Shown here piece by piece: positions 49,696 through 57,469 of a stretch of 64,000 nucleotides of DNA. A program made the position numbers and the translations under genes. Source of the DNA: Microthrixaceae bacterium (GTDB taxonomy: Bacteria > Actinomycetota > Acidimicrobiia > Acidimicrobiales > Microtrichaceae); assembly GCA_023958095.1 (NCBI GenBank), contig JAMLGJ010000001.1:124001-188000 (forward strand), written 5' to 3'. Positions within the stretch are counted from its first letter, which is position 1. Every line of letters begins with the position of its first letter. Below the pieces are notes generated by a model. The model searched no databases. It saw only the letters and a program-made list of their open reading frames with translations, and was not told the origin of the DNA.

Positions 49696-51126
49696 ATGAG
49701 CGACGACACCGAGTCACCGGCTTCTCCTGCGGAGGAACCATCCACTTCTCCGGAGGAGGAACCATCCGGAGGAGAAGCCGGTCTGCGTGCCGAGCTCGCA
49801 GCGATGCGTGCCGAGCGCGACGAGGCACGCGCCGAGCTGGACGAGCTCCGCACGACCAAACCGTCTCGCCACATCCCGCGCCGCCTGCTGGCGGGCACCA
49901 TGGTGGTCATCTCCTGTGTGGCGTTCCTGACCGGCTCGATCGGCATCTGGGCGAGCCGGAGCTTCCTCGACACCGCAGTGTGGGTCGACCACGTCGGTCC
50001 GCTCGCCGAGGATCCGGACGTGCAGGAGGCCCTTGGCAACCGGATCACCACCGAGCTCATGATGGTGGTCGATCCCCAGACGCTGTTCGAGGAGGCTCTT
50101 CCCGAACGCGGCCAGATCCTCGCGGCGCCGCTGTCGGGCGCCGTCGAGGGGTTCGTCGGGGACCAGGTCGACAAGTTCGTCGCGAGTGACGCGTTCGCCA
50201 ACCTGTGGGTCGGGATCAACCGCGAGGCCCACCAAGCAGCGGTGAAGGTGCTGCGGGGGCAGTCCGAGGCCGTCGAGGCCGGTGACGACGCCGTGACGCT
50301 GAACCTGGTGCCGGTCATCAACCAGGTCCTCGCTGAGATAACCAGCGCATCGCCGGAGCTGTTCGGCCGCACGATCAACATCCCGGATGTCCAGATCGAC
50401 GAGGTGCCCTCCTCGGCGATCGACAAGATCAACGATGCCTTCGGCACGGACCTGCCCGACGACTTCGGGCAGATCACGATCTACGACGGCGGGACCCTCC
50501 AGGAGATCCAGGATGCGGTGGCACTGTTCGACCGGATCGTATGGGTCTCGGTGGTCGTGTTCGTACTGTCCACGATCGGGGCGTTCGCCGCTTCGGTGGA
50601 CCGGCGCCGCACCTTCTTCCAGCTCGCCATCCCAGCTGTGCTGATCCTGGTGCTTCTGCGCCGGGCCGCGATCAGGGCACAGGACCAGATCCTCCAGCTG
50701 GTGCCCTCCGACGGAAGCGTGCCCGCGGTGGAGGCCGTGACCGACGCCCTGCTCCAGGGCCTCTTCGACGGCACGCGTCTGGTGCTGTGGGCCCTCGTGG
50801 CGGCACTCGCGGTGGTGTGGATCACGGGCCCGGGTGCTCGAGCCACGGCCACACGCAGGCGCACCAGTGCCGCGGCATCGGCGGTGTCGGGTGCCGCAAG
50901 GGAACGAAGCAGCGATCCCGCAACCGTTGCCTGGCTCACCGCCCACCGCGACGCGCTCATGGTCGCAGGAGTCGTGGTGGCGGTGTTCCTGCTCGTGTGG
51001 TCCAGCCTCTCCTGGTTCGGGCTACTGGTGCTGCTGGCGCTGCTGGCTGCCTACGAGATCGCGCTGAACCGGATGACCGCCCAGCGCGGGGAACAGCCCG
51101 AGGAATCGGGGTCGGGTATCACCTAG
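49696..51126 (+). CDS. Membrane protein with N-terminal coiled coil, unknown function
   Basis: 476-aa protein. The first ~55 residues are acidic and then a short coiled coil (LRAELAAMRAERDEARAEL). A helix at about 64-86 is followed by an extracytoplasmic domain (about 88-275), then helices at about 278-300, 306-320, 350-375 and 415-445, and an acidic tail. The outside domain has repeated LxxxITxELMMVVDP-like helical segments of the kind found in actinobacterial membrane proteins of unknown role. It lies first in the plus-strand envelope cluster running to 57.5 kb and has its own -10. Confidence 0.75.
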   Translation: MSDDTESPASPAEEPSTSPEEEPSGGEAGLRAELAAMRAERDEARAELDELRTTKPSRHIPRRLLAGTMVVISCVAFLTGSIGIWASRSFLDTAVWVDHVGPLAEDPDVQEALGNRITTELMMVVDPQTLFEEALPERGQILAAPLSGAVEGFVGDQVDKFVASDAFANLWVGINREAHQAAVKVLRGQSEAVEAGDDAVTLNLVPVINQVLAEITSASPELFGRTINIPDVQIDEVPSSAIDKINDAFGTDLPDDFGQITIYDGGTLQEIQDAVALFDRIVWVSVVVFVLSTIGAFAASVDRRRTFFQLAIPAVLILVLLRRAAIRAQDQILQLVPSDGSVPAVEAVTDALLQGLFDGTRLVLWALVAALAVVWITGPGARATATRRRTSAAASAVSGAARERSSDPATVAWLTAHRDALMVAGVVVAVFLLVWSSLSWFGLLVLLALLAAYEIALNRMTAQRGEQPEESGSGIT

Positions 51127-51209: not shown

Positions 51210-51413
51210 ATGTCGAAGCGCTACCTGCTCCGGGTCGGCGCATCGGCGAGTCCGTTCCTGGCTGCTGCCTTCCCCGAGTTCGATGTGGAACCCGAGGACG
51301 ACGGTCGCGCACGCATGGTGGGGTCCCTGGTCGACGACGCCGCCCTGCACGGCGCCCTGCAGCGGCTCCAGAACCTCCAGGTGGAACTGCTCGCGGTCAC
51401 CCGGCTCGAATGA
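51210..51413 (+). CDS. 67-aa conserved-type hypothetical protein coupled to SulP gene
   Basis: Small soluble protein with no signal peptide: an N-terminal MSKRYLLRVGAS, the middle AFPEFDVEPEDDGRARMVGSLVDDAA, and LHGALQRLQNLQVELLAVTRL. The order strand, variable loop, GxhxDxAALHGxLxxhxxLxhxLhxV is one I associate with small actinobacterial proteins of unknown function and may form a ferredoxin-like ACT-type fold. GGAGGTG lies 4 nt before the ATG. Its stop overlaps the SulP start (ATGA), so it is translated with the transporter and could regulate it. Confidence 0.72.
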   Translation: MSKRYLLRVGASASPFLAAAFPEFDVEPEDDGRARMVGSLVDDAALHGALQRLQNLQVELLAVTRLE

Positions 51414-53122
51414 CCCGGTTCCTGCCGATCGCCGAGTGGCTCCCGCGCTACGAGCGCGCTGCGCTGGTCCCCGACCTGCTCGCGGGGCTGACGGTATGGG
51501 CGCTGCTGGTCCCCGAGGCGATGGCGTATGCGGAGCTCGCGGGAATGCCCCCGGAGACTGGGCTGTACGCGGGCTTCGGAGCGTTGGTGGCCTACGCCCT
51601 GTTCAGCACCTCACGACAGGTCACGGTCGGACCCAGCTCCACCGTGGCGATCCTCTCGGCGGCAACCGTTGCTGCGGTGGCGGGAGACGCCGACCGGGTC
51701 CAGCTCTCGATCACCCTCGCCCTGCTGGTCGGGGTGGTCTTCATCGTGGCGGGCATCGCGAGGTTCGGCTTCGTGAGCGTGTTCCTCTCGCCTCCAGTGA
51801 TGGTCGGTTTCACATTCGGGCTCGGGGTGACCATCGCCGTCGGTCAGCTCGACAAGCTCCTCGGGATCGAGGCCGAGTCCGGCAACGTGGCCGAACAGGT
51901 GCTCTCGATCATTGGACACGTCGGGGATGCCGACGCCAGAACCGTGGTCATCGGTGCGTCGTCACTGGTGGCGCTCCTGGCGGCCCGTGCCCTGCTGGGC
52001 CACCGGATCCCGGTGGCCCTCGGCCTGGTGGCGCTGACCATCGCCCTGTCGGTCGCGTTCGGCTGGGAGGCCGACGGCGTGCACGTGGTCGGGGAGATCC
52101 CGGCGGAGGTGCCCTCGCTGACCACCCCCGAGGTGGGCCTGTCGGATGTCGGCGCGCTCGTGCCGGGCGCCATCGGGATCGTCTTGGTCGCGTTCGCCGA
52201 GGGGTACGGCGCAGCCCAGGGGATCGCTCGCCGCCACGGCTACCGCGTCGATCCGGACAGGGAGATGGTCGCGACCGGTGCCGCGAACCTCGGATCGGGT
52301 CTGCTCGGAGGCTTCACCGTCGACGGCAGCCTGTCCCGGTCGGCGGCTGCGGACGAGGCGGGAGCACGCACCCAGATGGCCATGTTGCTCTGCGCCGCGG
52401 CGGTCCTCGCAACGATCTGGGTGCTCACGCCGTTGTTCGAACCGCTGCCAGAGGCAGTGCTGGGCGCGATAGTGATCGCTGCGGTGACCGGGACCTTCCG
52501 GGTGGGCGAGATGCGGCGCATCCGCTCCATCCGCACCGGTGACTTCGCAGCCGCCCTCGTCGCGCTTCTGGGCGTGTGCCTGATCGGGATCCTGCCGGGT
52601 CTCGCGATCGCGGTGGGAATCTCCTTCGTGATGCTCGTGTACCGCGCCAGCCGGCCGAACATGCCCCGCCTCGGCATCGTGGAGGGCCAGCACGGCTACG
52701 TGGCGACGACCAACGAGGGCGCCGAGCAACCGACGGAGGTGGCGGTGCTGCGCCTGGACGCACCGCTGTTCTTCGCCAACGCGGAGGCCTTCGGCGACCG
52801 TGTCGCTGCGCTGCTCGCCGAGGAGCCGCGCCCCAGGGCGGTCGTGATCGACCTCGAGACGGTCAACTTCGTCGACACCGGCGGCGCCGACGCGCTCGGA
52901 GAGGTCGTCGCCCAGCTCCGGGCCGCGGGTACGGGCGTCGCCGTCGCCCGACTCAACGCCGAGGGGCGCGAGGTCCTCACCCGGGCGGGTGTCGCTGCTG
53001 CAATCGGCACCGAGGGCTTCCACCCCTCGGTCCAGGATGCCGTCCTTGCGCTGCGGGACCGACCCCATGGAGTCTCACTCTCCGAGGATGATGCGGGGCA
53101 CCCCGACCATGGTGAGGATTGA
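51410..53122 (+). CDS. SulP-family anion transporter with STAS domain
   Basis: Inner-membrane anion transporter (sulfate, bicarbonate or dicarboxylate are typical substrates), 570 aa. The membrane part (about 15-415) shows YAELAGMPPETGLYAGF, the SulP signature, GPSSTVAIL and VPGAIGIVLVAFAEGYG. A cytoplasmic STAS domain follows (about 440-555) with LFFANAEAFGDRV and VIDLETVNFVDTGGADAL; where regulatory STAS domains have a phospho-acceptor Ser/Thr, DTGG is present. The 67-aa gene overlaps its start. A sulfatase lies 4.5 kb downstream, but that does not establish sulfate as the substrate. Confidence 0.92.
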   Translation: MTRFLPIAEWLPRYERAALVPDLLAGLTVWALLVPEAMAYAELAGMPPETGLYAGFGALVAYALFSTSRQVTVGPSSTVAILSAATVAAVAGDADRVQLSITLALLVGVVFIVAGIARFGFVSVFLSPPVMVGFTFGLGVTIAVGQLDKLLGIEAESGNVAEQVLSIIGHVGDADARTVVIGASSLVALLAARALLGHRIPVALGLVALTIALSVAFGWEADGVHVVGEIPAEVPSLTTPEVGLSDVGALVPGAIGIVLVAFAEGYGAAQGIARRHGYRVDPDREMVATGAANLGSGLLGGFTVDGSLSRSAAADEAGARTQMAMLLCAAAVLATIWVLTPLFEPLPEAVLGAIVIAAVTGTFRVGEMRRIRSIRTGDFAAALVALLGVCLIGILPGLAIAVGISFVMLVYRASRPNMPRLGIVEGQHGYVATTNEGAEQPTEVAVLRLDAPLFFANAEAFGDRVAALLAEEPRPRAVVIDLETVNFVDTGGADALGEVVAQLRAAGTGVAVARLNAEGREVLTRAGVAAAIGTEGFHPSVQDAVLALRDRPHGVSLSEDDAGHPDHGED

Positions 53123-53153
53123 GCTGCGAGACACCCACGCAGGAGGATGACAG

Positions 53154-53627
53154 TTGAGTGACGAGATCGACGAGTTGGGGCCGGTCGACTACCTGGTGGT
53201 CGAGTTCCCTGCCGATCGCGCCGACTTCTCCGGGGCCATGGCGGAACAACTCCTGGCACTGGCCGACGCCGGGACGATCAGGGTGCTCGACCTGATCGTG
53301 CTGCGCAAGGACTCCGACGGCGGCGTCGAGGCCTACGAGATGGACGACATCCCCGAACTCGACGAGCTGCGCGGTCTCGAGGCCGACCTCGCGGAGCTGC
53401 TCGCCGAGGAGGACGTCGAGAACCTGGCTGCTGCCATCGATCCCGGATCCACCGCCGCCGTGCTCGTGTGGGAGAACGCGTGGGCCGCGCCGTTCGCCTC
53501 GTCGATCCGCCACTCGGGCGGACAGCTCGTCGCCACGGGGCGGATCCCGATCCAGGCCCTGGCCGCCCAGTTCGAGGCCGAGAACGACAGCCAGACCGAA
53601 CCCGCCACAACCGACGAAGGAGCCTGA
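53154..53627 (+). CDS. DUF6325 family protein
   Basis: 157-aa acidic protein of the DUF6325/DUF1269-like group. Blocks ELGPVDYLVVEFPADRADF, IRVLDLIVLRKDSDG and VLVWENAWAAPFASSIRHSGGQLVATGRIP are typical. The start is TTG, supported by AGGAGGA 6 nt upstream. A 57-aa basic protein gene follows after 1 bp, so the two are co-translated. Proteins of this group often lie beside SHOCT or small basic proteins and respond to stress in some actinobacteria; no biochemical function is known to me. Confidence 0.83.
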   Translation: MSDEIDELGPVDYLVVEFPADRADFSGAMAEQLLALADAGTIRVLDLIVLRKDSDGGVEAYEMDDIPELDELRGLEADLAELLAEEDVENLAAAIDPGSTAAVLVWENAWAAPFASSIRHSGGQLVATGRIPIQALAAQFEAENDSQTEPATTDEGA

Positions 53628-53628
53628 A

Positions 53629-53802
53629 ATGCCGTTGCGCCCAGCCCGCAGAGCCCGTCGCGGAGTCGTAGGACGCCCCGTCGCCCGCACTGCCGCAGTC
53701 GCCGGCACCGCTGCAGTTGCCGCCCACGGAGTCGCCCGTCGCGTAGATCGCCGCGACGACCGGCGCGACGACCGGCGCGACCGCCGACACGGTCGCCGCT
53801 GA
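53629..53802 (+). CDS. 57-aa Arg-rich small protein
   Basis: Short protein: MPLRPARRARRGVVGRPVA at the N-terminus, a hydrophobic Ala/Val stretch (about 20-35), then an Arg/Asp-repeat tail (DRRDDRRDDRRDRRHGRR-like). GAAGGAG lies 6 nt before the ATG, and the gene starts 1 bp after the DUF6325 stop. It could be a membrane-associated or nucleic-acid-binding peptide. A terminator-like hairpin follows its stop directly, which supports a real transcript end. Function unknown. Confidence 0.62.
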   Translation: MPLRPARRARRGVVGRPVARTAAVAGTAAVAAHGVARRVDRRDDRRDDRRDRRHGRR

Positions 53803-53845
53803 GTCGGGCGTCGCCCCACCCATCAGCAGCCGGCGACGGCCCGAC
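53803..53845 (+). terminator. Terminator hairpin after the small basic gene
   Basis: Left arm GTCGGGCGTCGCC (53803-53815) pairs with GGCGAC plus GCCCGAC (53832-53845) with one bulged G and a 16-nt loop. It starts at the base after the stop codon. No T run follows. Confidence 0.5.
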
Positions 53846-53887
53846 CGCTGTACGACGGCGAACGACCGGTCGGAGTCCTGCGAGGCC

Positions 53888-53893
53888 TAGGGT
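53888..53893 (+). promoter_or_regulatory. -10 element TAGGGT, leaderless start of pseudokinase/UPF0104 gene
   Basis: TAGGGT ends 6 nt before the GTG at 53900. Confidence 0.5.
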
Positions 53894-53899
53894 CGGGCC

Positions 53900-56326
53900 G
53901 TGGCGAACCCCCCGACCAGCGCGGCCCACCGCGGGATGCTGACGGCCCTGTCGGTGCACGGTTCCGGAGCACCGTTCTTCTCCTCACCTCGGGGTTCGAC
54001 CCGGGAGCGCAGTGTGTCCGACGGCGTGCTGCTCGTCCTGAGCGCGCTCGGTGCGGGCCTCATCGGCCTGGTGGCCATCCCTCCTTCGGGCTTCGAGTCG
54101 GCAGTCATCGGGCTGGTGGCCGCATTCCCGTCGTGGCTCGGCTTCGTGTGGCGCCTGGGAATCGCCATCCTCGTCGGATGGATCTTGGCCGTGGCCTACA
54201 TCGCCGCGGCCCGTGCCCGCTGGGACGTGCTGTTGGACGTCTGCGCCGCAGCAGTCCTCGGCCTCGGCCTGGCGTTGCTGGGAGCGCGGATTCTCGACGG
54301 CACATGGCCCGACCTCTCGGCGGTGCTGGTCGGGGGCAGGACTGGATCGGTTCCCCTGGCGACACTCGTGATGGCCTCGGCGGCCGGCTTCGCAGCAGCA
54401 CCCCACCTGGCGGTGCCATACCGCCGCTTCGGACGGATCGCCGTCGTGGCGGGCGTGGGCGGCGCGGTGATGCTCGATGCCACCACACCGACCGGTGGAA
54501 TCCTGAGCCTGCTGGTAGGGGGGTCGGCCGCTGCGCTCGTGCACGTCGTGTTGGGTTCCTCGGCGGGCCGACCGACCCTGGCGGAGGTCGCCGAGGCGAT
54601 GGTGGAACTCGGAACGGAGGTGGACGGACTCGCCGAGGGGCCCCACACCCGCGGAGGACCGCTGGTGACAACCGGGTTGGACCGATCCGGTGCGAAGGTG
54701 CGCATCAAGGTCTACGGACGCGACGCCCGCGACGCACAGTTGTTGTCCCGGGCGTGGCGCCTGCTGTGGATGAGGGGATCAGCTGTGGTTGCGCGGTCCC
54801 GGGAGCAGTACGTGGAACGGGAAGGCTTCGTCACGCTGCTCGCCCGGTCCCGCTCCCTGGCCGTGCCAGAGGTGGTCGTCGCCGGCCGCACCGGACGGGG
54901 CGATGCCCTGATCGCAGTGCGCGACGCCGCGAAGCCCCTGTCGGTGTGCGACCGCCCCAATGTGGAGGACTCCCTCCCCGCGATCTGGCAAAGTGTCGGG
55001 CAACTCCACGCAGCCGGGATGGTGCACGGCGCACTGGAACCTGATGCGTTCGGGTTGCGGCCCGACGGCGTCGTAGAGCTGCGCGACCTCGGCACGGCGG
55101 AGCTGGGCAACCACGAAGCAGCGAGGATCCGGGACCTGGCCCAGTTGGTGGCCGCCACGTCGGTGCTCGTTGGCATCGAGCGTGCGGTGGTCGCCGCCGG
55201 CGACGCTCTCGGCCCGGAGAACGTCGAAGAGGTGCTCCCCTACCTGCAGGCCGCCGCTCTCAGCACACCGCTGCGCCACGCGCTCAAGGACTCGGGGGTC
55301 GACTTCGAAGCCCTGCGCTCCGCGCTCGGCGCGGTCGTGGATGTCGAGGTACCCGAGCCGGTCGAGCTGCGGAGGGTCTCACCGCGCTCGATCGCCACCG
55401 CCGCCCTACTCGCACTGGTGGCATGGGGACTGATCACCCAGCTGAGCAGCATCGACTTCTCGGAGCTGTGGGACGAGATCCGAGGCGCCACACCCGGTTG
55501 GGTCGTCGCTGCCCTGGTCCTGGCGCAGTCCGTCTTCCTGCCCCAGGCCGTCGCAACCCGGGGCGCCACGCCGGTTCGTGTGCCCCTGGGTCCCGTCGCC
55601 ATGCTGCAGGCCTCGATCGCGTTCGTCGCTCTGGCAGTGCCATCCACCGCAGGCCGACTGGCCCTGGACATCCGGTTCTTCCAGCGCCAGGGACTGCCCG
55701 CCGGATCCGCGGTGTCCATCGCCGCCATCGACAGCTTCAGTGGCTTTCTCGTACAGGCCTCGCTCCTGTTGCTCACACTCGTGTTCGGCGTCGGCGAGGT
55801 GCACCTCGACTTCCAGCGGACCTCGCAGGGATCGTCGATCGACCTGACAACCGTGCTCGGGATCCTCGCCGTTCTCGCCGTGGTGCTGGGTGTGCTCGCG
55901 GTGGCAATGCGTCGCATACGGGAGCGCCTGGTCGCCCGGGTGCGCCCGGTGATCGCACAGGTGCGCCAGACGGCGGTCTCCCTGCGACAGCCCTCGAAGC
56001 TGCTCGAGCTCTTCGGTGGGAACCTGCTGACACAGCTGGTCTTCGCTGCGACGCTCGGTCTCTGCCTCAGGGCCTTCGGTGGGGACCTCGACCTGGCGAC
56101 CCTTGTGGTCGTCTACGTGGCCGCAGCGTTGTTCGGCGGATTCATGCCCGTACCCGGCGGAATCGGCGTCATGGAGGCAGCCCTCATGACCGGGCTGATC
56201 GCGGCCGGGGTGTCCGCGGCCACTGCGTCGGCGACCGCGTTGCTGTTCCGCGCGGTCACCTTCTACCTGCCGCCGTTGTGGGGATGGCTGGCCATGGGGT
56301 GGCTCCGACGTCGCGACTACCTCTGA
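53900..56326 (+). CDS. Pseudokinase / UPF0104 (LPG-synthase TM) membrane fusion
   Basis: 808-aa protein of three parts. The N-terminus has about six membrane helices (43-62, 66-86, 88-103, 108-130, 150-172, 178-215). A cytoplasmic kinase-like domain follows (about 240-480): a candidate beta-3 Lys is K270 in VRIKVYG, but the catalytic loop reads HGALEPDAF (376-384) with no HRD Asp and the DFG position is RDLG, so it looks like a pseudokinase. The C-terminus (about 500-805) is a UPF0104/LPG_synthase_TM domain with about eight helices, including PVPGGIGVMEAALMTGL. UPF0104 domains move or flip lipids in MprF-type proteins. Regulation of a flippase by the kinase-like part is inference. Confidence 0.82.
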   Translation: MANPPTSAAHRGMLTALSVHGSGAPFFSSPRGSTRERSVSDGVLLVLSALGAGLIGLVAIPPSGFESAVIGLVAAFPSWLGFVWRLGIAILVGWILAVAYIAAARARWDVLLDVCAAAVLGLGLALLGARILDGTWPDLSAVLVGGRTGSVPLATLVMASAAGFAAAPHLAVPYRRFGRIAVVAGVGGAVMLDATTPTGGILSLLVGGSAAALVHVVLGSSAGRPTLAEVAEAMVELGTEVDGLAEGPHTRGGPLVTTGLDRSGAKVRIKVYGRDARDAQLLSRAWRLLWMRGSAVVARSREQYVEREGFVTLLARSRSLAVPEVVVAGRTGRGDALIAVRDAAKPLSVCDRPNVEDSLPAIWQSVGQLHAAGMVHGALEPDAFGLRPDGVVELRDLGTAELGNHEAARIRDLAQLVAATSVLVGIERAVVAAGDALGPENVEEVLPYLQAAALSTPLRHALKDSGVDFEALRSALGAVVDVEVPEPVELRRVSPRSIATAALLALVAWGLITQLSSIDFSELWDEIRGATPGWVVAALVLAQSVFLPQAVATRGATPVRVPLGPVAMLQASIAFVALAVPSTAGRLALDIRFFQRQGLPAGSAVSIAAIDSFSGFLVQASLLLLTLVFGVGEVHLDFQRTSQGSSIDLTTVLGILAVLAVVLGVLAVAMRRIRERLVARVRPVIAQVRQTAVSLRQPSKLLELFGGNLLTQLVFAATLGLCLRAFGGDLDLATLVVVYVAAALFGGFMPVPGGIGVMEAALMTGLIAAGVSAATASATALLFRAVTFYLPPLWGWLAMGWLRRRDYL

Positions 56327-56362
56327 TCCGTACCGAAGCGCGGTGGGAATCGCCGCTGCGGA

Positions 56363-56391
56363 CGAATCACCCGGTGCTGGCGAATCACCCG
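56363..56391. repeat. Direct repeat upstream of DUF7144 gene
   Basis: CGAATCACCCG occurs at 56363-56373 and 56381-56391, an 18-bp period. It lies between the UPF0104 gene and the DUF7144 promoter and could be an activator site. Confidence 0.45.
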
Positions 56392-56416
56392 TGGCGGAGG
56401 ATGACCTCGAAGGCGG

Positions 56417-56429
56417 CCGTACGTACGGT
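56417..56429 (+). promoter_or_regulatory. 12-bp palindrome overlapping -10 of DUF7144 gene
   Basis: The perfect palindrome CCGTACGTACGG (56417-56428) overlaps the hexamer TACGGT (56424-56429), a -10 candidate 39 bp before the ATG at 56468. A regulator bound here would block this promoter. Confidence 0.4.
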
Positions 56430-56467
56430 GCTGAGAGTTCATGCCAAACCACACGAAGGGGATCACC

Positions 56468-56866
56468 ATGAGCGACACCTACCAGGAGCCGACGGGCTGG
56501 ACCGGATGGATCGCATTCGCCGGCATCATGATGCTGATCGGGGGCTCGCTGGCCTTCGCACAGGGTCTCGTCGCCGCCATCAACGACGAGTGGGTCGTCT
56601 GGGGCCAACGAGCGAACCTCTACCTGGACCTCTCAGCCTGGGGCTGGATCCACATGCTGGTGGGTGTGATCGTCTTCCTCGCCGGACTCGGGGTGTTCTC
56701 CGGCAACGTGCTCGCCCGAACGGTCGGGGTGATCGTCGCCTCGCTCAGCCTCGTGGCCAACTTCCTGTGGCTTCCCGCCTATCCGCTGTGGGCGATCATC
56801 ATCATCACGATCGATGCCCTGGTCATCTGGGCACTCACCGCCCACGGGGCGGAGATGCGTTCCTGA
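56468..56866 (+). CDS. DUF7144 family membrane protein
   Basis: 132-aa membrane protein with four helices (about 14-36, 50-72, 78-97, 100-122). GWTGWIAFAGIMMLIGG near the N-terminus and AWGWIHMLVGVIVFLAGLGVF are typical of DUF7144. AAGGGGA lies 6 nt before the ATG at 56468; the ATG at 56441 lacks such a site. The DUF1269 gene follows after 78 bp. Both are small envelope proteins of unknown function. Confidence 0.83.
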   Translation: MSDTYQEPTGWTGWIAFAGIMMLIGGSLAFAQGLVAAINDEWVVWGQRANLYLDLSAWGWIHMLVGVIVFLAGLGVFSGNVLARTVGVIVASLSLVANFLWLPAYPLWAIIIITIDALVIWALTAHGAEMRS

Positions 56867-56944
56867 CCGGCGGAGCCCAACAGGCACGCCGAACCCGCAC
56901 GGCGGGAACCTCACAGGACAGGACCCAAAGACACAGGAGTAGCC

Positions 56945-57469
56945 ATGCCCCTCGACACCTTCTTCGCCTACCTCGGCACGTACTCGGACCTCGATGATGC
57001 GTTGGCCGACTACGCGGCGGTCAAGACACTCCACACCGAGTTGGACCTGATAGACGCCTACGACGCAGCGGTCATCGAACGTCGCGACGACGGCAAGGTC
57101 AGGATCGTCAAGAAGCACGAGACACCGACTCGCGCAGGGGGAGTTCTCGGCGGTGGGGTCGGCCTCGCCACGGGCCTCGTGATCGCTCTGTTCCCGGCCG
57201 CGGCCATCGGAACCGGTCTGCTGGCCGGTACGACCGCTGCGGGCGCAGCCCTCGGTGCCGTGGCCGGACACGCCGCTGCGGGCATGAGCCGCAAGGACCT
57301 CAAGGAAGCGGGCGAGCAGCTCGACGAGGGAACCGCAGCCCTGGTGGTCGTCGGAGCGTCCGACATGGCCTCGAAGATCGAGAGCGCCATGGCCAAGGCC
57401 GAGAAGGTCGAGACCAAGCAGCTCGAGGCCGACCAGGACGCGATCGAGGCCGACGCCCGCGAGGCCTGA
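56945..57469 (+). CDS. DUF1269 family membrane-associated protein
   Basis: 174-aa protein. An N-terminal soluble part (about 1-55), a glycine-rich double hydrophobic stretch (about 62-105, GGVLGGGVGLATGLVIALFP and GAALGAVAGHAAAG) and a C-terminal helical part (LDEGTAALVVVGASDMASKIE) give the DUF1269 layout. AGGAG lies 6 nt before the ATG. A strong terminator follows 18 bp after the stop. A second DUF1269 gene is at 62963, but the two proteins share little beyond layout. Confidence 0.82.
   Translation: MPLDTFFAYLGTYSDLDDALADYAAVKTLHTELDLIDAYDAAVIERRDDGKVRIVKKHETPTRAGGVLGGGVGLATGLVIALFPAAAIGTGLLAGTTAAGAALGAVAGHAAAGMSRKDLKEAGEQLDEGTAALVVVGASDMASKIESAMAKAEKVETKQLEADQDAIEADAREA

Follow-up and report, generated by a model that had tools for sequence, protein, structure and literature searches.

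MprF-type flippase domains are widespread, and their substrates and control are mostly unknown. In MprF, PF03706 is the part that translocates aminoacyl-PG, and the whole of the COG0392 family is predicted to consist of lipid flippases (PMC5898192). A second relevant system is MviN/Rv3910 of mycobacteria (ActPs3, MurJ-type), a proposed lipid flippase that carries a pseudokinase (PMC12599244, PMC6656915). This pseudokinase fails to bind ATP (PMC12599244); ILK does bind it, the DFG Asp holding a single cation and the Asn being replaced (PMC4718504). MprF-type flippases go without mention in a recent review of pseudokinase families in bacteria (PMC12599244).

Here, a window of 64,000 nucleotides from a Microthrixaceae bacterium (contig JAMLGJ010000001.1, positions 124,001 to 188,000) was analysed, and all coordinates given below are those of the window. 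It includes a gene, P0001, the product of which is almost certainly a fusion of a pseudokinase and a flippase, with the following parts:

53900-56326, + strand: the whole ORF, P0001, 808 aa with a GTG start, made up of six helices, a pseudokinase and a PF03706 domain
54014-54553, + strand: N-terminal membrane region, residues 39-218, six helices predicted by AlphaFold2
54575-55369, + strand: kinase-fold domain, residues 226-490, from AlphaFold2, structure matches and profile comparison
55382-56317, + strand: MprF-type flippase domain (PF03706/UPF0104), residues 495-806, from Pfam and a structure match to MprF

No description of this architecture, and no biochemical work on any member of its family, was found in the open-access literature searched, which is not proof of absence. 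The component parts are already known, and it is the fusion and a family of mixed intact and degenerate members that are apparently undescribed.

The P0001 reading frame is open across 808 codons, at exactly the position and on the strand given for it in an earlier sequence-only reading of the window, and the three-part architecture proposed there (N-terminal helices, a pseudokinase and a UPF0104 domain) is backed by models, by profile comparison and by homologues. Translation may in fact begin further in, as at the ATG at 53936, because similarity to the orthologues runs from residue ~19-26 onward and there is no obvious ribosome-binding site before 53900. The helices in the AlphaFold2 model span residues 39-59, 80-104, 108-133, 154-169, 172-191 and 197-218, and the N terminus and the kinase domain would both be cytosolic, a predicted topology that fits the positive charge of alternating loops. 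The full-length AlphaFold2 model, built from an alignment of 55 family members of full length, has a pLDDT of 85.8 and a pTM of only 0.66, and hence the arrangement of the domains relative to one another is uncertain.

Residues 504-795 match PF03706 (LPG_synthase_TM, UPF0104) at 110 bits, far over the cut-off of 33.4 (E 2.1e-31), and the C-terminal domain aligns with MprF of P. aeruginosa (9j8s) over 258 residues (Z 22.8, rmsd 3.3; VIA-align), which upholds the earlier assignment of a UPF0104 membrane domain. P0001 (residues 495-806) shares with MprF the flippase fold and the principle of joining a cytosolic domain to a flippase, but it is without the aminoacyl-PG synthase, as Pfam finds no match to PF09924 in P0001 and the ORF ends directly after PF03706, and it has instead a kinase-fold domain and six extra helices on the N-terminal side. 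The score against NF033480 is 56 bits, the cut-off being 600. The nearest analogue is MviN/Rv3910, like P0001 an actinobacterial membrane protein with a flippase and a pseudokinase. However, the flippase of MviN belongs to the MurJ/MviN family, the model of which has no match in P0001 in a Pfam scan at E values up to 1, whereas that of P0001 is PF03706, and in P0001, unlike in MviN, the pseudokinase lies before the flippase. The ActPs3 pseudokinases have also lost all of the canonical motifs, whereas P0001 keeps the Lys, the Glu and the DFG Asp.

Modelled in isolation, the middle domain (residues 222-491) gave a confident AlphaFold2 structure (pLDDT 93.2, pTM 0.89) that matches PRPK (Z 16.2 over 199 residues), Bud32 (15.3), the MSMEG_1954 structure (14.4), APH (13.9) and PknB (13.2), in a comparison run against a set PDB list that says nothing on families outside that list. 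The corresponding region of the full-length model matches PRPK, Bud32, RIO, a lanthipeptide kinase, PknB and WaaP (VIA-align), and the macrolide kinase MPH, WaaP and APH are also among the fold matches. The atypical kinases Bud32/PRPK and RIO are the best of these (Z 15-16 for PRPK/Bud32), but the score of P0001 against the curated NCBIfam Bud32 model, 16.3 bits for residues 362-417, is far under the cut-off of 246, and its catalytic Asp and Asn are missing.

In direct searches, Pfam finds no kinase match anywhere in P0001, and none to PF06293 (Kdo/WaaP). When compared with PDB sequences, the kinase region gives only weak kinase matches (phmmer, best E 0.01) and the full-length protein none at E 0.01. 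With these results and the sub-threshold Bud32 score, the kinase call of the sequence-only reading was weak alone, and homology to kinases rests on profiles and models. The P0001 orthologues align with an intact-motif paralogue clade at E 1.4e-29 over 267 columns (hhalign), and a profile from 49 relatives matches RIO2 and other kinases at E ~1e-5. Intact family members scanned in Pfam match Pkinase (12/12), APH (PF01636; 11) and Kdo (PF06293; 7), families that P0001 itself does not match; the paralogue L001 scores 24.8-27.7 bits against PF06293, for which the cut-off is 21.3. Together with the structure matches, these results confirm the kinase-like domain, and structure prediction, named beforehand as the check, returned a kinase fold and not its absence. 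The domain lies where it had been placed (residues 240-480) and is slightly longer, at ~226-490.

The residues of the kinase site, and others conserved around it, are as follows:

54707-54709, + strand: beta3 Lys270, kept (of 59 core-clade rows, 41 have K and 8 have R)
54716-54733, + strand: GRDARD, residues 273-278 just after beta3, the clade motif GRDxxD
54815-54823, + strand: alphaC E306-R307-E308 (VEHE in the family), with conservation of 94-97 % for the two Glu in the clade
55025-55033, + strand: HGA replacing HRD, with H376 kept (98 %) and the catalytic Asp changed to Ala378
55046-55048, + strand: Ala383 at the position of the catalytic-loop Asn
55085-55093, + strand: D396-L397-G398, equivalent to DFG, with the Asp kept (Asp in 46/59 of the core clade)
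55133-55135, + strand: D412, the Asp of alphaF, conserved at 98-100 % in every clade

Compared with the intact paralogue, P0001 retains K270, E306/E308, H376, D396 and D412 and has lost the HRD Asp and the loop Asn, and its G-loop is not glycine-rich. A pseudokinase is defined bioinformatically by the absence of at least one of the beta3 Lys, the HRD Asp and the DFG Asp, and judged by its residues P0001 is a pseudokinase in this sense, as the HRD Asp is Ala378, Lys270 and Asp396 being present. That HRD is replaced (within HGALEPDAF, A378 and A383 stand for the catalytic Asp and the loop Asn) and that Lys270 is kept had been read correctly. However, RDLG had been taken to stand in place of DFG, and this was mistaken, the DFG Asp being retained as D396. 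Conservation in homologues, which had been suggested as a check on K270 and the HGxLxP stretch, holds for H376 and for the most part for residue 270 (Lys or Arg in 49 of the 59 core rows, non-basic in some clade members), but not for position 378.

All five catalytic residues are kept in 14 of 123 non-redundant homologues. The commonest state, with the Lys, Glu and DFG Asp present and the HRD Asp and Asn absent, was found in 34 of the 123, P0001 among them, and several clades have lost the Lys and the DFG Asp altogether. A tree built by a quick method, without bootstrap and with an undefined root position, places P0001 in a 69-row group (support 100) that includes no intact members, all 14 intact rows being on the other side; this split is independent of the kinase trait because only flippase columns were used. 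Within the 69-row group, G273, R274 and D275 are conserved in 98-100 % and E306, E308, H376 and D412, at 94-98 %, are among the most conserved residues. The catalytic-Asp site (378) ranks 245-248 of 264 and is thus among the most variable, with A, Q, R, S and E all seen there. The dN/dS of the kinase domain is 0.04-0.12 between close orthologues, comparable to that of the flippase domain. On these sequence comparisons, purifying selection acts on the kinase domain in close orthologues, and the domain is kept for a role other than standard phosphotransfer. One member from the genus of P0001 (L018 in G001) is farther from P0001, having lost H376, than are orthologues from other genera (L037 and L008), which suggests paralogue loss, transfer or fast decay.

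The source genome includes six PF03706 genes and three of these, P0001 and two paralogues located by family search, have the three-part architecture. In L001 (contig C49), which adjoins a trehalose-phosphatase-like gene, all of the motifs are intact (VK, VEHE, HRDLRLANVF and IDFGF), and L004 (contig C3) is degenerate (HRGL and SFQ). Of 61 related genomes, 47 have a match to P0001 (E <= 0.001), in some cases to the flippase part only. A scan of named genomes with P0001 alone, the short patterns of which were too specific, gave no relatives, but a scan with the family alignment gave 72 loci, with the family found in Ilumatobacteraceae and other Acidimicrobiia, Gaiella, Cellulomonas, Nocardioides, Amycolatopsis, Pseudonocardia and Gandjariella. 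Strong family matches (E < 1e-30) were found in about 50 of 396 Actinomycetota genomes, a count that leaves out matches at E 1e-4 to 1e-7 which are probably to ordinary Ser/Thr kinases, and we infer that they include streptomycete- and mycobacteria-like genomes. The kinase-flippase family is widespread in actinobacteria, with members that have an intact site in the minority and the fold preserved after its loss in most.

Three further loci, probably from mycobacteria (L149-L151), carry a family member of ~791 aa, which is convergent with a GH92 glycosidase gene in L149 and adjoins a mycolate cyclopropane synthase gene in L150. The mycobacterial Rv0584/Rv0585c pair has the GH92 arrangement, and this member may correspond to Rv0585c; unlike P0001, it keeps HGD and has lost the Lys and the DFG Asp. 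Members from Pseudonocardiaceae (L131, L133, L135, L138-L140, L142 and L146) show the reverse of the loss in P0001, having kept the catalytic HxD and the Asn and lost the beta3 Lys and the DFG Asp (HHDLRAKN...NLT). Public records under the names Bifidobacterium breve, Gammaproteobacteria and Verrucomicrobiaceae (L077, L117 and L145) also carry this actinobacterial gene and are probably mislabelled or contaminated MAGs. At L038, L123 and L148, the family member has another, diverged one nearby, and these are possible tandem pairs.

P0001 is part of a run of genes on a single strand (51410-57469) in the order SulP, DUF6325, P0001, DUF7144 and DUF1269:

51410-53122, + strand: SulP-STAS anion transporter, which recurs beside the P0001 clade
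53154-53627, + strand: DUF6325 protein, the immediate upstream neighbour
56441-56866, + strand: DUF7144 membrane protein, the downstream neighbour
56945-57469, + strand: DUF1269 protein, the second downstream neighbour

Within ~3.5 kb of the 69 clade members, DUF6325 was found beside 8, SulP beside 5 and an ion channel gene beside 6, the last directly following the clade member in two distinct lineages of orthologues. A predicted membrane protein of 476 aa without a Pfam match (49696-51126) has relatives beside 5 of the 69; L016, L038, L110 and L132 include such relatives. None of these four was found beside the 54 other family members. The probes for these counts were taken from the neighbourhoods of P0001 and its orthologues, flank lengths vary and related rows are not independent. 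As there are only 38 copies of DUF6325 in 61 genomes, adjacency by chance would be ~0.1 % per locus. SulP and DUF6325 are also neighbours elsewhere (G018 contig C197 and G002 contig C1) and so may be a separate module. Lipid-biosynthesis genes were not seen to recur beside the family, and the gene context suggests a link with membrane and ion homeostasis more than with any named lipid pathway.

We propose that the PF03706 domain would move an amphipathic lipid, either lipid-linked or with a charged headgroup, across the plasma membrane and would do so without the aminoacyl-PG synthase of MprF. The cytosolic pseudokinase would be inactive in phosphate transfer and would serve to bind a ligand. 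The most likely ligand is either a nucleotide, held by K270/E308/D396, or a partner that would dock on the conserved GRDxxD face, and the conformation of the pseudokinase would gate the flippase or recruit it to an envelope complex. On balance, we consider it somewhat more likely than not that the pseudokinase is a regulator or scaffold of the transporter, and the more specific suggestion that its ligand is a nucleotide is put forward tentatively. Nucleotide- or partner-controlled lipid transport, the function suggested in the sequence-only reading, would fit the purifying selection and the residue pattern, which is that of ILK, with the Lys and the DFG Asp kept and the HRD Asp and Asn lost (PMC4718504). 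Binding of nucleotide by P0001 is not assured, since residue 270 is not always basic in the clade and the G-loop is not rich in glycine.

A serious rival, because the pseudokinase of MviN as the nearest precedent is without ATP binding, is that the pseudokinase is purely a scaffold, empty of nucleotide, to which a protein partner docks, such as the FHA protein in the case of MviN (PMC12599244). Across the family, the states of the Lys, HRD and DFG vary widely while GRDxxD, VEHE and D412 stay, and the complete loss of the Lys and DFG Asp in several clades also favours this. However, most members of the P0001 clade keep the Lys/Arg, the Glu and the DFG Asp, above the expectation for an unused pocket, and we regard the purely scaffolding role as doubtful.

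It is also possible, though unlikely, that the kinase fold acts, or once acted, as a Kdo/WaaP-APH-type kinase of lipid headgroups and that the fused flippase exports its product, as MprF does Lys-PG, the former enzyme now being a substrate-recognition domain in the P0001 clade. MprF likewise fuses an enzyme domain to PF03706 (PMC5898192). The Pfam matches of the intact members to Kdo and APH besides Pkinase, and the presence of WaaP, MPH and APH among the fold matches, are in keeping with such an origin, but the matches to RIO/Bud32 and protein kinases are at least as good, the lack of the catalytic Asp makes the normal mechanism impossible in P0001, and the gene neighbourhoods do not favour it. 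Among the Kdo/WaaP and APH-type kinase families, we know of no membrane-fused flippase. That the intact members both phosphorylate and flip a membrane lipid or carrier, with the pocket and GRDxxD of the derived clade used for recognition and nucleotide-gated flipping, is at best a speculative proposal.

It is improbable that P0001 is an active atypical kinase in which other residues stand in for the HRD Asp. The Lys, Glu and DFG Asp are intact, and in the closest orthologues the catalytic loop does offer an acidic residue, D382 (EPDAF/DLDSF). However, the clade shows almost no constraint at position 378, and its wider membership does not conserve D382. Least probable is a functionless remnant in decay, a reading that, despite the loss of catalytic residues in many different patterns, is disfavoured by the low dN/dS, by the open frames of the full-length members and by non-catalytic residues that are 94-100 % conserved.

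The regulator or scaffold role is the reading we prefer, and the presence of intact and dead versions in one genome, with a clean tree between them, makes possible a direct test of the role of a bacterial pseudokinase. With likely mycobacterial and streptomycete-type members in the family, the answer may bear on the envelope biology of bacteria that are already studied.
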